NCBI GenBank assembly: GCA_012840015.1
Contig: DUMF01000013.1
Location: 1 to 55,694, forward strand
Direction of reading: 5' to 3'
DNA length: 55,694 nucleotides
Source of the DNA: Bacillota bacterium
Lineage (GTDB): Bacteria; Bacillota; Sulfobacillia; DUMF01
Part shown: piece by piece, positions 16,068-39,586 of the stretch
How positions within the stretch are numbered: position 1 is the stretch's first letter
How the letters are laid out: each line of letters begins with the position of its first letter
Program-made: the position numbers and the translations under genes
The notes under the pieces: model-generated
Told to the model about the DNA's origin: nothing
The model's input: only the letters and a program-made list of their open reading frames with translations
The model's database searches: none

Positions 16068-16451
16068 ATGTCTACTAAGGCACTTATGCCTGGTTTTCGG
16101 GTTTGGCTCAAATACGGCGATGTGGTGATAGGGGAAGGTCTATATGAACTCCTCGAGGGTATCGGCGCGAGCGGTTCTATCTCTCAGGCTGCGGCGAGGA
16201 TGAAGATGTCATACCGCCAAGCATGGGACAAAATACGCAGGACAGAGAAAAGGATCGGAGTGTGCCTGATATCCGCAAAGGCAGGGGGACGCATGGGAGG
16301 AGGTACTCATTTGACCCCGGAAGGGGAGGATCTCCTGCGGCGATATGGTCGGTTCCGGTCCGAAGTGGCTGCTTCGGTCAATCAGTCATTTCAAAAGAAC
16401 TTTCACGATATGAGCTTGTGGGGGGATCCGCCAACTTCCGCGCAAGGTTGA
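16068..16451 (+). CDS. ModE-like winged-helix regulator lacking a molybdate-binding domain
   Basis: This 127-residue protein matches the N-terminal DNA-binding domain of ModE (LLEGIGASGSISQAAARMKMSYRQAWDKI, then THLTPEGEDLL). The C-terminal TOBE/MOP molybdate-binding repeats are absent, so it is a stand-alone domain of the ModE type. ATG 16068 was chosen, with GAGAGGTGAG just upstream; an in-frame TTG at 16053 is the alternative. It begins 4 bp after the RNase E/G gene. Its last 74 bases overlap antiparallel with the 3' end of the sigma-54 activator. It may control molybdenum or tungsten genes elsewhere. Confidence 0.82.
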   Translation: MSTKALMPGFRVWLKYGDVVIGEGLYELLEGIGASGSISQAAARMKMSYRQAWDKIRRTEKRIGVCLISAKAGGRMGGGTHLTPEGEDLLRRYGRFRSEVAASVNQSFQKNFHDMSLWGDPPTSAQG

Positions 16452-18417
16452 TTCCTTCATCAGTCAAGATTATCCCACTGCGGCCTCTTTTGACCGTGAC
16501 ATAACCTTTCTGGGCGAGCAGCCGGACCTGGCTCCGAATCTGGCTTTCCCCGAGCCTCAGCCCGCCAGCGCCTGCCAGCGCTGCGATCGAACGTCTGCCC
16601 ACGCTTTTTCCTTCCTGTGCCAGCTGGTATGCCAGCCTGAGAACCTGTAGGCCCTGCTTAGACACGCCTCCATGCAGAACCCGCTTTTCGCCTGAGGTCA
16701 CGTAATCGGGTAGGCTGGAAAGAGTGATTTCCCCCTGGCTCATGGACAGCATATACTCTACACAATTTTCGAGCTCCCTGACATTACCAGGCCAACTATA
16801 CCTTTTCATGGCCTCGAGGACCTCATTCGGGATCTCTCTTTCGTCGCCCTTTTCTTTCATCAATTGTGCCACGATTAGAGGCAGGTCTTCGATGCGTTCT
16901 GCCAGGGTGGGAAGTGTTAACGGCAATACACTCACGCGATAATACAGGTCTTCTCTGAAGGCGCCTTTCTCCACCAGCGCGCGGAGGTCTTTGTTCGAGG
17001 CTGAAATGATCCTTACGTCCACCGGAACGAGCCTCGTGCCTCCCAAGCGAAGCACTTCTTTTTCTTGCAGAACGCGTAATAACCTGGCCTGTAGCCGCAA
17101 GGGGATATCCGCGATCTCATCGAGAAAAAGGGTTCCGCGATGCGCCTGCTCGAAAAGGCCTGGCTTGCCGCCCTTCTTGGCACCGGTGAAAGCTCCTTCT
17201 TCGTAACCGAACAGCTCGCTTTCCAAAAGGGTATCAGGCATGGCAGCGCAGTTGATCGCAACGAAGGGATAAGGCGCTCGCCTGGAAGCGTTGTGAATTG
17301 CCTGTGCAAATAACTCTTTCCCAGTCCCGCTTTCTCCATAGATGAGTATAGGGCTGTCTCGGAGTGCGATGTTCTTGGCCAGGTTTACGGCGCGCGTTAT
17401 GGCCGCACTGCGACCGATTATATCTTTGAAGGTGTACCTGGCAACGTAGCCTGTCTTTTTCATCTCCCTCCTGACCAGGGCATCGAGCTCTTCGATGTCT
17501 TGCGTCTTCCTCAAAGTAAGAACGCCTATGCCTTTCCCCCACGCTTTACTCAACACGAAGCTTTTCCCGTCGATATTGCAAACACTTTCAGTGAACGGCT
17601 GCTGGGGATGAAAGGGCTTTACTGGAAGGATATCGCTGACGCTACGACCCACATACTGCCAGGCCTTTTTGTTGAGTGTCTTTTCAGCTTCCCTGTTGAG
17701 AAGCCTTATCCTGCCGCAGTCGTCGAAAGCTATGACACCTTCGTGTACCATGTCCAATACGAGTTCCAATTCCTTCCTCGTGTCGGCGAGGTTACCGAGG
17801 ACGGTAGCAAGCCCAGGGCTGCACGGTACCGTGTCCCTTAGGTGCTCTGCGATGGAATGGCTAAGTTCCGTGTCCGGAATGCTGAATCTGCTCGCGATAT
17901 CCAGAAGCGTGCTGGCATCTACTACCCTGTCGCCTATGTTCAAGACTTGCGTAACAGACGGTGGTACGTAATCCGGCTCGTTTGGAGTAAGAGCTAGGTC
18001 GAGATCTGGTACGGCGGAACCCGGATACACTGGCACTAGATCGATGTGCCTGGCACCCAATTCGTAGAGCAGCGCGATTGTCTCGAATGCCGCTTCTCTA
18101 TCGTTATTTACCAGCATCGCCCTTGTACGGGAAGGCAAGGCCATTACCTTTTCCCATGCAGTGCGTCTCAATGTGCGTCGCACGGGGATGATGGAGGTAG
18201 GCTGATCTACGAGATTGGCTACCCGGCTGGCCCATTCCTGACCGGGTACAAGTACTAAATCTCCCTTGATTCGGGGGGCGCTTTCTATTTCCAGTGGGTA
18301 AAGCACGAAGCGGAAGTGACCCCGTAAAAAAGATAGAAGCTGCCTTTGAAGAGTGTGTGCTGTCTTGACTGTACGCGTTACTATACATATTGTGGGTTTA
18401 ACAGTCGATTCGCTCAT
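16378..18417 (-). CDS. Sigma-54-dependent transcriptional activator with novel N-terminal sensor and winged-helix C-terminus
   Basis: This is an AAA+ enhancer-binding protein of about 680 residues. Residues 10-205 form an unassigned N-terminal domain (ARHIDLVPVYPG near 123-134). Residues 215-305 look like a PAS domain. The AAA+ domain spans about 333-565, with Walker A GESGTGKE at 362-369, the sigma-54 contact loop GAFTGA at 409-414 and Walker B LFLDE at 431-435. The C-terminus is a winged-helix-like segment (SQIRSQVRLLAQKGYVTVKRG), not the usual Fis-type helix-turn-helix. It would drive RpoN promoters on an unknown signal. ATG 18417 is preceded directly by a promoter-like -10. Confidence 0.92.
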   Translation of the reverse strand: MSESTVKPTICIVTRTVKTAHTLQRQLLSFLRGHFRFVLYPLEIESAPRIKGDLVLVPGQEWASRVANLVDQPTSIIPVRRTLRRTAWEKVMALPSRTRAMLVNNDREAAFETIALLYELGARHIDLVPVYPGSAVPDLDLALTPNEPDYVPPSVTQVLNIGDRVVDASTLLDIASRFSIPDTELSHSIAEHLRDTVPCSPGLATVLGNLADTRKELELVLDMVHEGVIAFDDCGRIRLLNREAEKTLNKKAWQYVGRSVSDILPVKPFHPQQPFTESVCNIDGKSFVLSKAWGKGIGVLTLRKTQDIEELDALVRREMKKTGYVARYTFKDIIGRSAAITRAVNLAKNIALRDSPILIYGESGTGKELFAQAIHNASRRAPYPFVAINCAAMPDTLLESELFGYEEGAFTGAKKGGKPGLFEQAHRGTLFLDEIADIPLRLQARLLRVLQEKEVLRLGGTRLVPVDVRIISASNKDLRALVEKGAFREDLYYRVSVLPLTLPTLAERIEDLPLIVAQLMKEKGDEREIPNEVLEAMKRYSWPGNVRELENCVEYMLSMSQGEITLSSLPDYVTSGEKRVLHGGVSKQGLQVLRLAYQLAQEGKSVGRRSIAALAGAGGLRLGESQIRSQVRLLAQKGYVTVKRGRSGIILTDEGINLARKLADPPTSSYRESSFEMTD

Positions 18418-18425
18418 CAATTCAG

Positions 18426-31617: not shown

Positions 31618-32643
31618 TTAAGTCTCAATGGGTTCTCCCGTCAGGAATATCTCGTAGCCGCAACGAGGGCAGAGCCGTCCCTTCAGTGCGGAAGAAACTA
31701 CTGAGAACCCGCTTCTCGTTATAACCTTAAACCCGCACTTAGGGCAATAGGTATCGTCCAAACCGGGTTGGTTCACGTTCCCTACGTAAACGTACCGTAG
31801 GAATTGCCTCGCTATTTCCCGTAGACGGATCAGCGTGGATACTGGCGTAGGGGGTAAATTCATCCTGTTAGCCGGGAAGTAGCGGCTTAAGTGCAGAGGT
31901 ATGTCAGGGTCCAGCGCTGCAATCCAACCTGCAAGGGCTTTCATTTCTTCGTCGGAATCGTTTAAACCCGGGAGCACCAGCGTGGTAAGTTCGACGTGTA
32001 CGCGCGCCTGGCTGAGGGTCTGTATGGTGGAAAGCACTCCCTCCAGCTCACCGTGACACAGCTTTTTATAATATTCAGGGTTGAAAGCCTTTAGGTCCAC
32101 GTTTGCGGCATCTATCACCTGGATCAATGACCTTACGGCATCATGACTCACGTAACCATTTGTTACCAGCACATTACACAAGCCGGATGCCCTGGCCAGC
32201 TTGGCTGTATCCATCACGTATTCGTACCATACCAGCGGCTCCGAATATGTGTATGCTAGGCCGACACAGCTCCGGTGCTCTCGGCTTTGTTCCAGGGCGA
32301 TCTGTACGAGCTGCTGGGGAGGCACGTACGTGCCTCCGGCGTCCCTTTGGGCAATTGACCAGTTCTGGCAGAATTCACAAGAAAAGTTACAGCCGTAGGT
32401 GCCGACGCTGAGTACCGTCGAGCCGGGGTAGAAATGGTACAGCGGCTTCTTCTCGATGGGGTCCAGCGCGATCGAGGTGACTAGCCCATAGCTCCGCGAT
32501 ATCAATGTTCCGCCGCGATTTTCTCGCCCTCTACAGAAACCACGCGCACCAGCCTGGATTACGCAGGAGCGAGGACAAAGTAAGCACTTTACCTTGTTAT
32601 CGCCCAGGCGTTCCCAAAACCTGGCTTCAACAGGTTCACTCAT
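31618..32643 (-). CDS. amrS: AmmeMemoRadiSam system radical SAM enzyme
   Basis: This 341-residue radical SAM protein has an extra N-terminal cysteine cluster (CLLCPRSC, then GFCRGREN). The radical SAM cluster ligands are CNFSCEFCQNW, as in the PflA-like branch. Two zinc-knuckle pairs lie at the C-terminus (YCPKCGF and LCPRCGY). Its partner proteins, Memo-like and AMMECR1, are encoded as one chain immediately upstream, with an 8-bp overlap. The reaction of this widespread three-part system is not established. A zinc-ribbon tail suggests a nucleic acid or protein target; that is inference. Confidence 0.92.
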   Translation of the reverse strand: MSEPVEARFWERLGDNKVKCLLCPRSCVIQAGARGFCRGRENRGGTLISRSYGLVTSIALDPIEKKPLYHFYPGSTVLSVGTYGCNFSCEFCQNWSIAQRDAGGTYVPPQQLVQIALEQSREHRSCVGLAYTYSEPLVWYEYVMDTAKLARASGLCNVLVTNGYVSHDAVRSLIQVIDAANVDLKAFNPEYYKKLCHGELEGVLSTIQTLSQARVHVELTTLVLPGLNDSDEEMKALAGWIAALDPDIPLHLSRYFPANRMNLPPTPVSTLIRLREIARQFLRYVYVGNVNQPGLDDTYCPKCGFKVITRSGFSVVSSALKGRLCPRCGYEIFLTGEPIET

Positions 32644-33967
32644 ACCTCGTCACTGTGAAGCGGAAGAGCTCCACATCGCTGTCATCAGGGTGGATGCCTG
32701 CTTTCAGTTTCGCAATGCGCAACTGTTCCTTCACGCTATTGACGCCGGGTAAATCAGGCAGCAGCACGCCGGACCTATGGCCTTTTTTAACCAGGACTCC
32801 ATACCTACAAGGATCCAGCTGCGATACGGAGCTAACTGGCTCCATGGGTGAAAGTACATCCACCTTGAACTCGAGTTCCGGGAGCTCACTTAAGCTAATC
32901 GGTTCGAAGCGGGGATCATCGATACCTGCAGATACAGCATTTTGAATGATTTCTTCAGCTACGTTGTCCTTGGTAGGAGCTATGGTGCCTATGCACCCCC
33001 GAAGTTCGCCATGACTATGTATGGATACGAAGGCACCAGCTCTGTGACGAAGTTCTTCCGGAAGGTTTTTGGGACATTCGAGGTATTCTCCAGTTCGCAG
33101 GTAGTGCTCGAGACTCCTTTTTGCGAGTTCTACCGCGAAGGAGGTCTTCAGGGCGGAAATTCTGCAGAAGAATACCGCGTACCCGACCCCGAAAGGCCCC
33201 TCATAGGAAATCAGTTCGGGCAGTGCCTGATAGCGTCCCAAAACTCCCATGAGCACGCAGATAGGTCTAAGGCCGCACTCGCCCGCCCTGTCTGCGAGAT
33301 GGAGGTCGATATTGACGATAGCTGCTTCATCCAGGCATTTGAGCGCCTGTGTCATGAGCTGGTCGAATTGTGCTCCTGCTGGGTCGTAGCCGGCGGGAGC
33401 CTCGGGCAGTAAACGATGGGACAAATCGCCGCTTGCCACGAAGCCTACTTTTTTGCCGCGCTGCTTCTCGACTACCTGAGATAACACTTGCCCAAAGCGG
33501 TATTGTTTCTTGAGGTCAAATAGTGAGATGGATATCACCACGAGATTTCCGCGATATCCTGCTTCATACATGTAATAGAGGGGTACCATCACTCCATGAT
33601 CCAGGGGTACTGGATCGTTGAACACCACGCACTCTATTCCGCTTGCTACCGAGGCATCACGAATTTTCTTAGCCAGATCGGTGTCGTTCGGCAATTGGAT
33701 GCGTACCTCGGGGGCACGGAACTGGCGCATATCGCCCGAAAGCACGGGTGCACCCTGAATTAGATAGGCGTCTCTGGCCACCGGACCGTGAGGAGTCATG
33801 ACTATCAAAGTGTCCGGAGCCAGCGCAGCAACTTTCTCCCCAAGCTTTTTCAGACCCTCAATTGTCGCACTGGCAGCTGCTTCTTCCCCCTTGCCCACAG
33901 AGGGTATGACGATTGGGGGGTGCGGGGAAAGAGCGCCGAAAACCAGCCTTGTGTCACCTTTGGCCAT
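32636..33967 (-). CDS. AmmeMemoRadiSam protein B-A fusion (Memo-like dioxygenase fold plus AMMECR1)
   Basis: This 443-residue two-domain protein has an N-terminal half with the LigB/Memo class III dioxygenase fold (LSPHPPIVIPSVG, TPHGPVARDAYL, ASGDLSHRL). From about residue 265 it is an AMMECR1 domain (HSHGELRGCIGTI, DDPRFEPISLSELPELEF). In many genomes the two are separate genes; here they are fused and overlap the radical SAM gene. ATG 33967 follows AGGGGGTGAG at proper spacing, with GTG 33973 two codons earlier as alternative. The fusion supports physical assembly of the three activities. Confidence 0.92.
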   Translation of the reverse strand: MAKGDTRLVFGALSPHPPIVIPSVGKGEEAAASATIEGLKKLGEKVAALAPDTLIVMTPHGPVARDAYLIQGAPVLSGDMRQFRAPEVRIQLPNDTDLAKKIRDASVASGIECVVFNDPVPLDHGVMVPLYYMYEAGYRGNLVVISISLFDLKKQYRFGQVLSQVVEKQRGKKVGFVASGDLSHRLLPEAPAGYDPAGAQFDQLMTQALKCLDEAAIVNIDLHLADRAGECGLRPICVLMGVLGRYQALPELISYEGPFGVGYAVFFCRISALKTSFAVELAKRSLEHYLRTGEYLECPKNLPEELRHRAGAFVSIHSHGELRGCIGTIAPTKDNVAEEIIQNAVSAGIDDPRFEPISLSELPELEFKVDVLSPMEPVSSVSQLDPCRYGVLVKKGHRSGVLLPDLPGVNSVKEQLRIAKLKAGIHPDDSDVELFRFTVTRYE

Positions 33968-34011
33968 GATCACTCACCCCCTGGGATCTCGTGGTATTGT
34001 GCCCAACCCGG

Positions 34012-36093
34012 TCACTGGAAAAACTTCTGCAAGCCCGTTGCTAAACCTTCTGCTGCTCTTTGAACAGTGTCAGGCGCTCTAAGCAATGCTTCCTCGGTTG
34101 GGTTGCTGATGAACAGCACCTCAGCGATGACGCACGGTACGCCGCTTTCCCTTGGAATGTAGAGGTTGGAGAGCCTGGCGCCCTTGTTCTCGCTGCCGAG
34201 TTTCGAGCTGAGTTCGTCGGCCAATATCCGAGCCAAAACCGAACTTACCGAAGTGTTCGGGGTATTCTTGGCCAGGTAAACGGAAGTGCCGCGTACTGAC
34301 CTGTCCACGTTCGCGTTGTTGTGGACGGATACCATGCAGTCTGCCTGGATATTGCCTGCCATGGCCGCTCTGGATTCCAAGTCCATCTCGCTATCGGAAG
34401 TGCGCGTCATGTACACCTGTGCACCCATAGCTTCGAGCACCGACTTGAGACGCATGGCGATCTGTAAGTTCACGTCTTTTTCATAGAGACCGGTAGGTCC
34501 TACGGCACCTGGGTCGGGCCCACCGTGCCCTGCATCTATCAATATTTTCTTGCCGGCCAGCCCCGGGCCCACCAATTCGAACTGTAGTCCACCCGGTATT
34601 TGACGGGCAATGTATCTCGGCCCGACCGTGGACCTGAGGTCGATGTTCAGATTCGAAGAGGATGCCACGTATACGCTAGTGGCCAGTCTCCCTTTGAACG
34701 ACTGTGTGCTGCCGGTGTAATTTGCCCCCGGAGCCGTTATGGACACTGCATGTCTCGATTCATTCCATTCTACGGTCGGGCTCAGGTACCCGCGGGCTTG
34801 GATGAACAATACATCCCTGTCGCTTCTAGATGAAAGCGTGACTCCGGTGATATCAGTGCTCACCCGAAATACCAGGCGGTTTGGAGTGCGTTCTACCAAT
34901 TCGATTTTAGGCCACATCTTAGTTCCCAGCCATATTCCGTTCCTGTTGAGGCTCAGGGTGGTTAGGTCATAAGCATTCACGTCGAGAAGAGCATCTCTAC
35001 CTGCCCCATCGCTTAGAAACACCCCGGCTCCGGTTCCTGATGGAGATATGAAGGGGACGGCTCTAGACAGATCACCCTCGACCGTGAGAGTTTTGAGATG
35101 AGGCGTGCTCGCCTCGAGGCGTACCTTAGCGATAGCCGGAGTGGAATACGGCACAGTCAGGTATGATGCTACCCAGGCAGTGTTCCCGTTTGGTGTGGAT
35201 ACCTTCAACCATCCCGCGCTGACGGATAGCACTTTCACCACTGTACCACCCTGTAACCTTCCTACGACCTTATACTGCGTGCCCGGGCCAGACCTCAAAT
35301 TGCACGTGGATTTCGCCTTTCTCATAGGGAGTTGCTGGATTTCCCATACATCGGTTTCGAGACGATAGTTCACAGATTGCGGAAAAGCGACGCGATTATA
35401 GAGCTTAACGTCATTCGCATCGATCCAGCCCCTTTTGCCCGATGCAGTTCTTACCAGCAACCAGCCTTGCTGAGAGCCCTCGTACTTGAGAATCGAACCA
35501 GCTCGAACGCTGGTGACCACGCCCGAAAAGTCCGCCGGGGAAAACCTCAAAGACGAATCTACCAGTGCCAGCGCTTCCCTGGCGACGTTCGATGTCTTGA
35601 GCCATTGTTCGTTTAGGGTTTGAAGCTTAACGAGGTCCTCCGCTATCCAGGCGTGACCGCCGCCCTGGGTTTGAATCATGACCCAACCGGTCCTCTTCGC
35701 GATGGCTACAAAAGATTGCGACCTGTTTGCACGCCCGACGATACTGGTTGAGGTAGAAGGTCCGGAACGAAGATTCGCCCTCGAGGCGGTTACCACCGCG
35801 AGGGTAGGTTGCAGGTCGAGCCTGAATTCGACTAAGGATGTATGTATCCAGGCTTCCTTGCCAGCATATCTTACCTTGGCCCATTCACGTTCTTGAGTTA
35901 TGAGCTCGAGGGATTGGCCTGCCCGGACGGTACCGGCTATAGGGAAAGAAGTGCCAGGCCCGGCGCGAAGGTTTGCCTGGTCGGCTATTACTGTGACGGT
36001 TCCGTACTGAGCTGCTGCTACGCTTCCTCCCAAGAATAGGAAGCTCAGCAAAACAGCAAGACCAACTATGCAGGATTTCTTTACGTTTACCAA
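34012..36093 (-). CDS. N-acetylmuramoyl-L-alanine amidase with SH3 repeats
   Basis: This secreted cell-wall hydrolase has about 693 residues. A signal peptide ends near AAAQ. Four SH3b-type repeats follow, each with an NLRSGPGT-like motif (the third degenerate), then an AMIN-like region and an Ami_3 amidase domain from about residue 514 of the longest reading. Zinc ligands are in AGHGGPDPG, LYEKD and SVHNN, and the catalytic glutamate in AEVLF. TTG 36093 has GGAG eight bases upstream. GTG 36102 would abut that site. It starts the operon that continues with the AmmeMemoRadiSam genes. Confidence 0.92.
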   Translation of the reverse strand: MVNVKKSCIVGLAVLLSFLFLGGSVAAAQYGTVTVIADQANLRAGPGTSFPIAGTVRAGQSLELITQEREWAKVRYAGKEAWIHTSLVEFRLDLQPTLAVVTASRANLRSGPSTSTSIVGRANRSQSFVAIAKRTGWVMIQTQGGGHAWIAEDLVKLQTLNEQWLKTSNVAREALALVDSSLRFSPADFSGVVTSVRAGSILKYEGSQQGWLLVRTASGKRGWIDANDVKLYNRVAFPQSVNYRLETDVWEIQQLPMRKAKSTCNLRSGPGTQYKVVGRLQGGTVVKVLSVSAGWLKVSTPNGNTAWVASYLTVPYSTPAIAKVRLEASTPHLKTLTVEGDLSRAVPFISPSGTGAGVFLSDGAGRDALLDVNAYDLTTLSLNRNGIWLGTKMWPKIELVERTPNRLVFRVSTDITGVTLSSRSDRDVLFIQARGYLSPTVEWNESRHAVSITAPGANYTGSTQSFKGRLATSVYVASSSNLNIDLRSTVGPRYIARQIPGGLQFELVGPGLAGKKILIDAGHGGPDPGAVGPTGLYEKDVNLQIAMRLKSVLEAMGAQVYMTRTSDSEMDLESRAAMAGNIQADCMVSVHNNANVDRSVRGTSVYLAKNTPNTSVSSVLARILADELSSKLGSENKGARLSNLYIPRESGVPCVIAEVLFISNPTEEALLRAPDTVQRAAEGLATGLQKFFQ

Positions 36094-36222
36094 AGCGGTC
36101 ACTCCAATCGACTCTCTCTTACTAGGTGACGATTTTCGTCGAAGCTTGTTCTCACTCCTCCTTACAGTGCGGTTACAATATAAAAACGGGGAATGTAGGA
36201 CCTATTTCACCAGCTTATCGGC

Positions 36223-36254
36223 CTTTATCTGATATTTGGAGGAGTTATAATAAC
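36223..36254 (+). promoter_or_regulatory. Candidate promoter with overlapping palindrome before the P-loop/Asp23 gene
   Basis: TTTATC (36224-36229) and TATAAT (36246-36251) are 16 bp apart. The -10 lies inside the perfect palindrome GTTATAATAAC (36244-36254), which might be an operator. Confidence 0.45.
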
Positions 36255-36291
36255 CATCGAGAAGTCCCTAAAAGGGGTTGAGTGTTGCGTC

Positions 36292-37128
36292 GTGGAAGTC
36301 ATTGCTCTGGTGGGTCGGAGTGGAACAGGTAAGAGTTATAGAGCTTCCATAGTCGCAAACAGGTGGCAGGCAGACTTGATCATCGACGACGGTCTCCTGA
36401 TAAAAGACTCCAAAATCGTGGCCGGTACGTCTGCCAAAAAAGAACCAACAAAACTCAAGGCGGTGCGAAGGGCTCTGTTCTGGGAACCGGGGGATGCCTT
36501 GGCGGCCAGGGCTAAGATCAGGGAACTTCAACCCGAACGGATTTTAGTGCTGGGTACTTCACAAAAGATGATCGAACGCATCACCGAATCGCTGAACCTG
36601 CCATCCCCGAGCAAATATGTAAACATAAGGGAAGTATCTTCCCCGGAGGACATTAAACGAGCTTTGCGGATCCGCAAAGAACAAGGCAAACACGTGATTC
36701 CAGCAGCTACTCTCGAGGTCAAGAAAACCTTTTCCGGCTACCTTGTCGACCCTCTCAGGTTTTTCATTCGCCCGCGCGGAGGATTGGACGGGTATGTTGT
36801 CGAAAAGTCAATAGTGAGACCCACGTACAGTTCCTTCGGTCGGTTTTATATTGCAGATTCCGTGATCATGACGATCGTACTGCACGAGGCGGCTTCCGTG
36901 CCTGGAGTAGAGGCGGCTACTAAGGCGTTGGTGGAAACAAAGCCTGAAGGAGTGGTAATAAGTATTGATGTCGTCCTGCGATACGGGGTAAGTTGTTTCG
37001 ACGTTATGAAAGAGGTGCAAAAGAGGGTTGCTTTCATGGTCGATTATCTTACGGCTTTATACGTGATTTCTGTGAACGTACGGGCAAAGTCAGTTAGTTG
37101 TGCTGCGCGAGGGGATGCTCAGCCATGA
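36292..37128 (+). CDS. P-loop NTPase fused to an Asp23/Gls24 domain
   Basis: This 278-residue protein has an N-terminal NTPase-like half with Walker A GRSGTGKS at about 8-15. The linker contains KTFSGYLVDPLRFF. The C-terminal half (from about residue 180) reads FYIADSVIMTIVLHEAAS and ends VRAKSV, the Asp23/Gls24 envelope-stress pattern. Asp23-domain proteins associate with the cell envelope in Firmicutes; a coupled NTPase is unusual and its role is not known. GTG 36292 is preceded by AAAAGGGG at a long distance. The stop overlaps the rpoN start by 4 bp (ATGA), so it is coupled to sigma-54 synthesis. Confidence 0.75.
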   Translation: MEVIALVGRSGTGKSYRASIVANRWQADLIIDDGLLIKDSKIVAGTSAKKEPTKLKAVRRALFWEPGDALAARAKIRELQPERILVLGTSQKMIERITESLNLPSPSKYVNIREVSSPEDIKRALRIRKEQGKHVIPAATLEVKKTFSGYLVDPLRFFIRPRGGLDGYVVEKSIVRPTYSSFGRFYIADSVIMTIVLHEAASVPGVEAATKALVETKPEGVVISIDVVLRYGVSCFDVMKEVQKRVAFMVDYLTALYVISVNVRAKSVSCAARGDAQP

Positions 37129-38501
37129 AGATGTCCTTCGGGCTGAATCTACAACAGACCCAGAAACTCATCATGACTCCCGAGTTGCGCCAGTCCATTA
37201 TGGTTCTGCAACTCAATGCCCTCGAGCTGTCTCAGTATATTCGGCAAGAAGTGCTTGAAAATCCATTGCTGGAGTTAAAAGAGCCTGTGGACGAGGGTTT
37301 GAGCACGGAAAGTGGTCAGGAGAGCGAGCAGTTCGACTGGGAGAAGTTTGATTGGGAAGCTCACTTCAACAAGACGTCTCTTCCGGTACGCGAGGCATAT
37401 GAAGCTCCCCAGATAGAGAGTTTCACGACGAAAACTCCTACGTTGGAAGAGGCTCTGCTGAGTCAACTCAGACTGGTATGCACCACAGACGAAGAATATC
37501 AGATCGGTAGATTCCTAATCGGTAATATCGACGACAACGGTTACCTGCGTTGCGACGTAGCCGAGGTCTCCGAGAGGCTACATGTACCGGTAGAGCAGGT
37601 GGAAGAAGTCATACAAATAATCCAAACCTTAGAACCAGTAGGCGTGGGTGCAAGGGACCTCAAGGAATGCTTGCTGATCCAGCTTGACTACCTCGGAATT
37701 GAGGATCCTGTGGTAAGGCGCGTCGTCGAATCACATTTGAAACAACTTGCGGAAGGCAAGTATCAGAAGATAGCCGCCGCTTTAGGAGTGAGCGTGCAGG
37801 AAGTACAGAAAGCGGCCGACTTGATAAGGACACTGGATCCCAAACCAGGCCGAAGATTCGCTGGCTCAGACGAGATGATATATGTGATTCCTGACGTCAT
37901 CGTGGAAAAAGTAGACGGTGATTACGTAGTACTCGTCAATGACTCTTACTTGCCTCGTTTGGGCATCAGCGCCTTCTACAAGGGTATGCTACAGCGGAGC
38001 ACGGACGAGGCCACACGTACTTTCCTCAAAAACCGGCTCGACTCTGCATTGTGGCTGCTGAGGAGCATTGAGCAGCGCCGCCTGACGATGTACAAGGTGG
38101 CTCAGTGCATAGTGGACATGCAGCGGGAATTTTTGGAATTTGGCGTTAAGCACCTGAAACCCATGACCCTCAAGCAGGTGGCCCAATATGTGAACGTGCA
38201 CGAGTCTACAGTAAGCCGGGCGATAAACAACAAATACATGCAGACTCCGCGAGGCACTTTTAGCATGAAGTTCTTCTTCGGGAGCGGAGTTGAAGGCAGT
38301 GGCGGGGATTCAGTCTCAGCGAAAGCGGTGATGCGGATCATCCAGGATGCCATCAAGGGAGAAGATTGCTCCAAACCTTACACCGATAAGCAGTTGCAGG
38401 AGCTACTCCTGCGCAGGGGTTTACAAATATCGAGGAGAACAGTTACAAAATATAGGGAAGAGCTAGGTATACAAAGCTCAAGCCGGAGAAGGCGATACTG
38501 A
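37125..38501 (+). CDS. rpoN: RNA polymerase sigma-54 factor
   Basis: This 458-residue sigma factor has glutamine-rich region I, which contacts activators (FGLNLQQTQKLIMTPELRQ). The core-binding domain occupies the middle. The C-terminus has the helix-turn-helix (TLKQVAQYVNVHESTVSRA) and the RpoN box, here SRRTVTKYRE, that reads the -24 element. It needs AAA+ activators such as the one at 16378-18417. ATG 37125 overlaps the upstream stop. A hairpin separates it from gap. Confidence 0.96.
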   Translation: MKMSFGLNLQQTQKLIMTPELRQSIMVLQLNALELSQYIRQEVLENPLLELKEPVDEGLSTESGQESEQFDWEKFDWEAHFNKTSLPVREAYEAPQIESFTTKTPTLEEALLSQLRLVCTTDEEYQIGRFLIGNIDDNGYLRCDVAEVSERLHVPVEQVEEVIQIIQTLEPVGVGARDLKECLLIQLDYLGIEDPVVRRVVESHLKQLAEGKYQKIAAALGVSVQEVQKAADLIRTLDPKPGRRFAGSDEMIYVIPDVIVEKVDGDYVVLVNDSYLPRLGISAFYKGMLQRSTDEATRTFLKNRLDSALWLLRSIEQRRLTMYKVAQCIVDMQREFLEFGVKHLKPMTLKQVAQYVNVHESTVSRAINNKYMQTPRGTFSMKFFFGSGVEGSGGDSVSAKAVMRIIQDAIKGEDCSKPYTDKQLQELLLRRGLQISRRTVTKYREELGIQSSSRRRRY

Positions 38502-38509
38502 TACCCAAC

Positions 38510-38540
38510 CGACCCCATCAGGCTAAGCCTCATGGGGTCG
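38510..38540 (+). terminator. Hairpin between rpoN and gap
   Basis: CGACCCCAT (38510-38518) pairs with ATGGGGTCG (38532-38540), with AGGCT/AGCCT extending the stem. Only TTTT lies beyond, ten bases later, so it may act as a partial terminator or RNA-stability element rather than a full stop. Confidence 0.6.
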
Positions 38541-38569
38541 GATTATGACTTTTGAAAGGAGCTGTGCTA

Positions 38570-39586
38570 ATGAGTATAAGAGTCGGAATAAACGGGTTTG
38601 GAGCTATCGGCAAAAGGTTCTTCCGGATAGCTGCGGCGAGCAACCAAGTAGAAGTGGTGGCGGTGAACGACCTTGCAGACCCGAAGACCCTGGCTCACCT
38701 GCTGAAATATGACTCCACTTACGGCTTGCTGAACGCAAAAGTGGAGGTCAAGGACGGCTCTATAGTGGTAGATGGTAAGCCCATCAAGGTATTTTCGCAG
38801 CGGGAGCCTGCTTCCATACCCTGGGCGGAGTGTGGAGTACAGGTAGTGGTTGAATCGACGGGCAAGTTCACGGAGGCGGAGAAGGCTGCCCAGCATATGA
38901 AAGCCTCCACAGTGAAAAAGGTCATCATTTCAGCTCCGGCTAAGGGAGAAGACATCACCATAGTGCTCGGCGTGAACCATGACCAGTATGACCCGTCCAA
39001 ACACCACGTAATCTCGAACGCTTCATGCACCACCAACTGTCTTGCCCCGGTGGCAAAGGTACTTCACGACAACTTCAAGATCGTTAAGGCCTTGATGACT
39101 ACATGCCACGCGTACACCAACGATCAGGTGGTCCTTGACTTCCCGCACAAGGATCTCAGGAGAGCTCGAGCTGCCGGCCTGTCCATAATTCCGACCACGA
39201 CGGGCGCAGCCCGTGCTGTAGGCAAGGTATTGCCCGATCTGAATGGTAAAATTAACGGGCATGCCCTGAGGGTTCCCGTTCCTGCCGTCTCCATCGTGGA
39301 CCTGGTGGCTGAGGTTTCCAGGGACGTCGAAGCGGATGAGGTAAACCAGGCATTCAAAAAAGCCGCCAGTACATATCTCGATGGCATCCTCCGCGTGAGC
39401 ACTGAACCGCTCGTCTCTGTAGATTTCAAGGGCGACAGCCACTCCGCCATAGTGGACGCTCCTTCTACCATGGTGACGGGAGGACGCCTAGTCAAGGTAT
39501 TCGCCTGGTACGATAACGAGTGGGGCTACTGCAATAGGTTGGTGGATCTCGTCGCGTTCATTGGCGAGAAAGAGGGATGGGCATGA
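38570..39586 (+). CDS. gap: Glyceraldehyde-3-phosphate dehydrogenase (NAD type)
   Basis: This 338-residue glycolytic enzyme interconverts glyceraldehyde 3-phosphate and 1,3-bisphosphoglycerate. [11 protein letters not shown] begins the Rossmann fold, and NDLADP supplies the aspartate that favours NAD over [16 protein letters not shown] holds the active cysteine, and WYDNEWGY is near the C-terminus. ATG 38570 follows AAAGGAG. The stop overlaps the pgk start by 4 bp. The genes run gap-pgk-tpiA, with no cggR upstream and no gpm or eno downstream. Confidence 0.97.

Follow-up and report, generated by a model that had tools for sequence, protein, structure and literature searches.

The gene directly upstream of rpoN in the window (the whole 55,694-nt stretch of Bacillota DNA analysed here) encodes a protein of two domains, a P-loop domain and an Asp23 domain. 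The fusion is stable, its nucleotide-site residues are invariant across homologues, and the gene persists in genomes in which rpoN is not detectable. We propose, at what we judge to be an even chance, that the protein is a housekeeping-type, NTP-controlled Asp23-type scaffold. Asp23 proteins occur widely, and little of their biochemistry has been worked out. With a stable Asp23 domain and an invariant nucleotide site in one chain, the role of the Asp23 domain becomes directly testable through K14 or D32/D33. The features of the region are as follows.

36292 to 37128, plus strand: NTPase-Asp23 fusion gene, an ORF of 278 aa with a GTG start; the start matches that of most homologues
36292 to 36684, plus strand: N-terminal P-loop domain, residues 1-131, predicted to be kinase-like from the AF2 model and Foldseek
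36313 to 36336, plus strand: Walker A motif GRSGTGKS, residues 8-15; K14 and S15 are invariant in 136/136 homologues
36385 to 36390, plus strand: D32-D33 after the second strand of the domain, invariant in 136/136, a candidate Mg2+ or substrate pair
36685 to 36846, plus strand: conserved linker, residues 132-185 (GKHVIP... and EKS.VRPT...); H134 and P137 are invariant in 136/136
36829 to 37101, plus strand: Asp23 domain, residues about 180-270, from PF03780 (1.5e-9) and alignment with the genome's own canonical Asp23
37125 to 37128, plus strand: ATGA overlap of the fusion-gene stop (TGA, 37126-37128) and the rpoN start (ATG at 37125)
37125 to 38501, plus strand: rpoN, sigma-54 factor of 458 aa (TIGR02395, 5.7e-136)
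38509 to 38541, plus strand: strong hairpin in the rpoN-gap intergenic stretch, with 10 + 4 pairs, a centroid energy of -26 kcal/mol and no long T run
38570 to 39586, plus strand: gap, first gene of gap-pgk-tpi, an ORF for which the ATG at 38570 was chosen by hand; from its sequence we take it to be glyceraldehyde-3-phosphate dehydrogenase

The original prediction, made from the DNA letters, had joined a P-loop and an Asp23 domain in one ORF and had noted that its stop overlaps the rpoN start. Both observations are confirmed, the former by the Walker A motif at residues 8-15 with PF03780 (1.5e-9) C-terminal to it, and the latter as ATGA in the window.

By sequence comparison, the C-terminal half is a true but shortened Asp23 domain. 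A profile check of this half, set beforehand as a possible refutation, placed it above the curated cut-off of the Pfam Asp23 model (PF03780, 1.5e-9, 38.7 bits versus 28), and the same model matches 70 of the 71 aligned family members at E ≤ 0.01. A BLASTP comparison with the genome's own canonical Asp23 (L184) gave E 2e-9 and 32/108 identical residues, with an 18-column gap in a loop. The canonical middle loop is incomplete, with ~18-20 residues missing in the three family members aligned. The C-terminal domain is that of a homologue of the Asp23 family (PF03780; S. aureus Asp23, B. subtilis YqhY and YloU), from which the fusion protein differs by an added N-terminal P-loop domain and conserved linker and by the loss of ~18 loop residues. 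AF2 models the Asp23 part with confidence (pLDDT block means of 89-98 over 191-270). In VIA, cation-diffusion transporters have a C-terminal domain like the modelled C-domain (MamM 6g5e, Z 12.0, rmsd 1.8, 79 aligned), and the matches listed for the whole model by Foldseek and VIA come mainly from the C-terminal domains of MamM and further metal transporters, aligned over 180-273. This likeness shows a common small fold and gives no indication of function.

PF03780 has four matches in the window's genome, of which the fusion gene is one, and canonical Asp23 genes coexist with it. The remaining Asp23-bearing proteins are small, at 140, 115 and 187 aa. A small stand-alone protein is customary for Asp23, though no strict requirement, and the fusion protein departs from it. 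The canonical gene (140 aa) adjoins the 187-aa Asp23-bearing protein and a further ORF (L184:893-2383); we take the 187-aa neighbour to resemble AmaP and the further ORF to be SpoIIIAG-like. S. aureus Asp23 is reported to be membrane-bound, and B. subtilis YqhY has been linked to ACCase control (PMC5437119, which deals with YqhY and YloU). For the fusion protein, the idea of envelope sensing would come solely from the Asp23 name.

No Pfam or NCBIfam model matches the NTPase half above cut-off, but the residues of its motif do not vary among the homologues. The best matches of the N-terminal piece, all below cut-off, were nickel_nikD (0.0011), AAA (0.0026), AAA_22 (0.0035) and ABC_tran (0.0073). 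A sequence search of solved structures returned weak P-loop matches and was otherwise at chance level. The AF2 model of the full-length protein, built from 71 sequences, has a mean pLDDT of 83.1, with both domains confident and the linker low, and residues 1-133 modelled alone reach 93.9. In Foldseek, the top match of the N-domain was gluconate kinase (1ko1_B, E 2.7e-3, TMq 0.56), followed mostly by nucleotide kinases, with nothing at E under 0.001. The best VIA score was Z 6.5 (Clp1, rmsd 3.8, 124 aligned; adenylate kinases tied), which is below the tool's trusted level. The models thus fit a minimal kinase-like P-loop domain, and the match is not strong. With P-loop kinases of the gluconate and adenylate kinase type the N-domain shares the Walker A motif, the overall arrangement as modelled and the acidic residues after strand 2, but it is smaller and has no sequence match above cut-off. 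The Walker B acid often sits after a strand such as 83-88, which in the N-domain is followed by no acidic residue (LGTS), and NTP hydrolysis is uncertain for this reason.

RapZ/YvcJ, a P-loop protein of about 280 aa with an N-terminal Walker A motif, is encoded near rpoN in Proteobacteria. The C-terminal half of the fusion protein differs from it in being Asp23. PF03668, presumably the Pfam model of RapZ/YvcJ, is absent among Pfam matches at E up to 10, and we rejected this identity. Sigma-54 activators (PF00158) have a P-loop and a sigma-54 context in common with the fusion protein. This identity was also rejected, as PF00158 is absent among its Pfam matches at E up to 10. PF00158 matches the genome at 13 places, 11 of which score strongly, and the fusion gene is none of them. 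One sigma-54 activator is encoded in the window, at 16378-18420 on the minus strand (PF00158, 2.3e-69).

Thirteen residues are identical in 136/136 homologues: K14, S15, D32, D33, G34, K49, A61, S90, M93, A124, R128, H134 and P137. These homologues (24 from named genomes, 52 from the class and 60 from the wide set) were drawn from 143 loci, leaving out five at which the gene was lost in ORF selection and two truncated copies; tblastn finds the gene in 143/143. An alignment of 71 rows, made from the window plus 70 loci out of 88 (those omitted include five duplicate contigs and two truncated copies, the rest being left out by choice), has 23 invariant columns, of which 16 fall in residues 1-131, six in the linker and one in the Asp23 domain. 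The predicted nucleotide dependence is plausible, as K14 and S15 of Walker A and the pair D32-D33 are invariant. The linker 132-185 is highly conserved and largely of low AlphaFold confidence, with pLDDT under 50 at 135-156 and 171-185. Judging from the model, it may be ordered solely with nucleotide or a partner.

The fusion is not peculiar to the window's genome, and the family is widespread and of Clostridia type. Of 61 class genomes, 60 carry a homologue; this count includes the window's own gene, and the others are 41-59% identical to it; the G020 homologue is split over two adjacent matches. The family profile (E ≤ 1e-20) finds the gene in 127 of 299 phylum genomes, again including the window's own, and all but one of the 127 have a single match. 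The scan of named genomes gave 29 loci, and every record was titled as Bacillota, Firmicutes, Clostridia or a member of one of these. When the N-domain alone was used as query, 69 of 149 genomes had a match. All 68 strong matches lie in frames of at least 269 aa; the 69th (G076) is weak, covering 30 residues in a 44-aa frame. The fusion therefore seems to be an old and stable one. A Monoglobus pectinilyticus relative, WP_158648977.1 (37% identical), is named ‘Asp23/Gls24 family envelope stress response protein’, and caution is needed as this database name covers solely the Asp23 half. The family is seemingly unstudied. No NTPase-Asp23 fusion was described in the titles and abstracts listed from an open-licence library.

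How might such a protein work? Under the scaffold reading, the minimal kinase-like P-loop domain would use Walker A and D32-D33 to bind a nucleotide, either ATP or a different NTP. Occupancy of the site could then be relayed through the conserved linker 132-185 to the Asp23 domain as a switch, with or without turnover. The Asp23 domain, which by analogy probably acts as an oligomer, would serve in assembly or in contact with a putative partner. Taken together, a nucleotide site that is strictly conserved, a linker that is also conserved and a fusion that is stable argue for either an NTP-controlled scaffold or a small kinase held by Asp23.

Does the protein act on sigma-54? The original prediction was of a nucleotide-dependent envelope sensor tied to sigma-54 output. 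Such a sensor would set that output by translational coupling and protein contact, a role we regard as very unlikely. In the window the identity of RpoN is clear (Pfam Sigma54_CBD 5.5e-65, Sigma54_DBD 1.6e-58), and the ATGA overlap speaks for coupling. The neighbourhood is also real inside the class: among the 60 class genomes with the fusion gene, 38 have rpoN, and in 26 of these 38, window included, it is found downstream, sharing contig and strand with the fusion gene and no more than about 12 kb away. For 12 of the 26 (window included) the estimated spacing is below 220 nt, and an rpoN fragment right after the fusion gene at a contig end in G017 (L090) raises the class genomes with rpoN just downstream to 13 of 60. 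In the remaining class genomes with both genes, rpoN is far off on the other strand (G031) or on other contigs (11 genomes, G017 among them, at distances that are unresolvable in drafts). However, the gene is kept where rpoN is not detectable, in 22 of the 60 class genomes and in 26 of the 127 phylum genomes, which counts against a tie to sigma-54 output. Nor is the overlap a shared trait, as tblastn estimates gaps of about 11-136 nt, and overlap in none, for 12 adjacent relatives. By tblastn, the window's RpoN is found in 23/59 class loci but in 0/24 named and 0/60 wide loci, where 58 of the 60 wide loci are outside the window's class (G185 and G239 are inside) and the 24 named loci are taken irrespective of class. 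Across the phylum sample, 101 genomes have both genes, 26 the fusion gene only, 97 rpoN only and 75 neither. This correlated presence (Fisher p 2.6e-5, uncorrected for kinship) favours coupling, but of the 79 of these 101 genomes in which rpoN positions were compared, 15 have both genes on one contig, where no pair but that of the window is close and the genes of the remaining 14 are separated by at least 124 kb. Within eight genes in 54 class loci, gap is nearby more often (33) than rpoN (22). After these surveys, we rejected sigma-54 coupling as the function.

A rival to the scaffold reading is a true phosphotransferase, either a small-molecule or a protein kinase, for which the Asp23 half would act as an anchor or dimerisation module and D32-D33, K49 and R128 or H134 would be candidates for the active site. 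We consider this rather improbable. The nearest folds belong to gluconate kinase, adenylate kinase and further nucleotide kinases, AAA_33 and IPT match 18 and 8 of the 71 family members, respectively, at E ≤ 0.01, and there are several invariant polar residues besides Walker A; yet the domain has merely ~131 residues, its fold scores are weak, and a substrate-binding or LID module was not identified. The weak matches to known NTPase models could be read as the mark of a relic, with the Asp23 half alone functional, but this is barely credible given that K14, S15, D32 and D33 are kept in 136/136 and that most invariant columns lie in the NTPase half. An unlikely alternative of a different kind is that the protein works with the replication-initiation genes, a DnaD-like protein and a DnaC/DnaI-type helicase loader. 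In 15 of the 24 named loci YtxC is encoded upstream, no more than two genes away, and a DnaD-like gene is encoded within four genes in 15 of the 60 wide loci, spanning 14 families. On the other hand, the DnaD cluster occurs in 0/54 class loci, redox or carbon-metabolism genes are the neighbours at other loci, and a gene order inherited in common could account for the DnaD neighbourhood. Possible rather than probable, in our estimate, is an undescribed family of nucleotide-gated Asp23 proteins whose kinase-like domain would read or use an NTP or metabolite and switch the Asp23 scaffold via the strictly conserved linker. Many Clostridia-type bacteria, a large share of them, would then have it as a core regulator or enzyme, perhaps with a link to helicase loading where dnaD-like genes adjoin it, in 14 families.

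Adjacency to rpoN is a local gene-order habit and no clue to function, and a single rpoN neighbourhood is a poor guide to function. The gene stretch with rpoN often includes gap and pgk, and a Na/Pi-PhoU gene or phoB-phoR sometimes intervenes between the fusion gene and gap or rpoN. Five class genomes (G004, G029, G042, G059 and G185) have the fusion gene followed directly by gap and no detectable rpoN. In the window, the fusion gene is probably co-transcribed with rpoN as a gene-order passenger. The hairpin between rpoN and gap may mark the transcript end for the two genes or serve in gap regulation. The 86-nt stretch that contains it has a folding z of -1.86, and it is absent from the terminator-scan output; promoter and terminator scans gave counts not above those in shuffles, and Rfam returned nothing at the gathering threshold over 35900-39000.

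No single neighbour is common to all lineages surveyed, and YtxC, DnaD/DnaC and the other non-rpoN neighbours are leads, with counts given without a background rate. Genes were called by the longest or best-conserved ORF, so small neighbour genes may be wrong. YtxC presumably adjoins dnaI in Bacillus. A sporulation link, suggested by YtxC, was rejected, as SpoIIR (PF09551) is without association (104/23/141/31, p 1.0). A DnaC/IstB-like gene lies within eight genes in 14 of the 60 wide loci. The DnaD-like gene is downstream on the same strand in four of its 15 loci, upstream and divergent in ten, and downstream on the other strand in one. At L140, L167, L170 and L173, from other classes or families, the fusion gene is followed after 3-11 nt by the DnaD-like and then the DnaC-like gene. 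In C. difficile, according to PMC5204125, the DnaD-like CD3653 adjoins the loader CD3654; PMC12548448 is cited beside PMC5437119 and PMC5204125. In Monoglobus the fusion gene sits beside Rex and a DNA glycosylase, and at some other loci beside NADH/Fe-S subunits. Elsewhere in the window, at 31618-33973 on the minus strand, a LigB (MEMO-like) domain fused to AMMECR1 is followed by a radical SAM protein, a set that we take to be AmmeMemoRadiSam.
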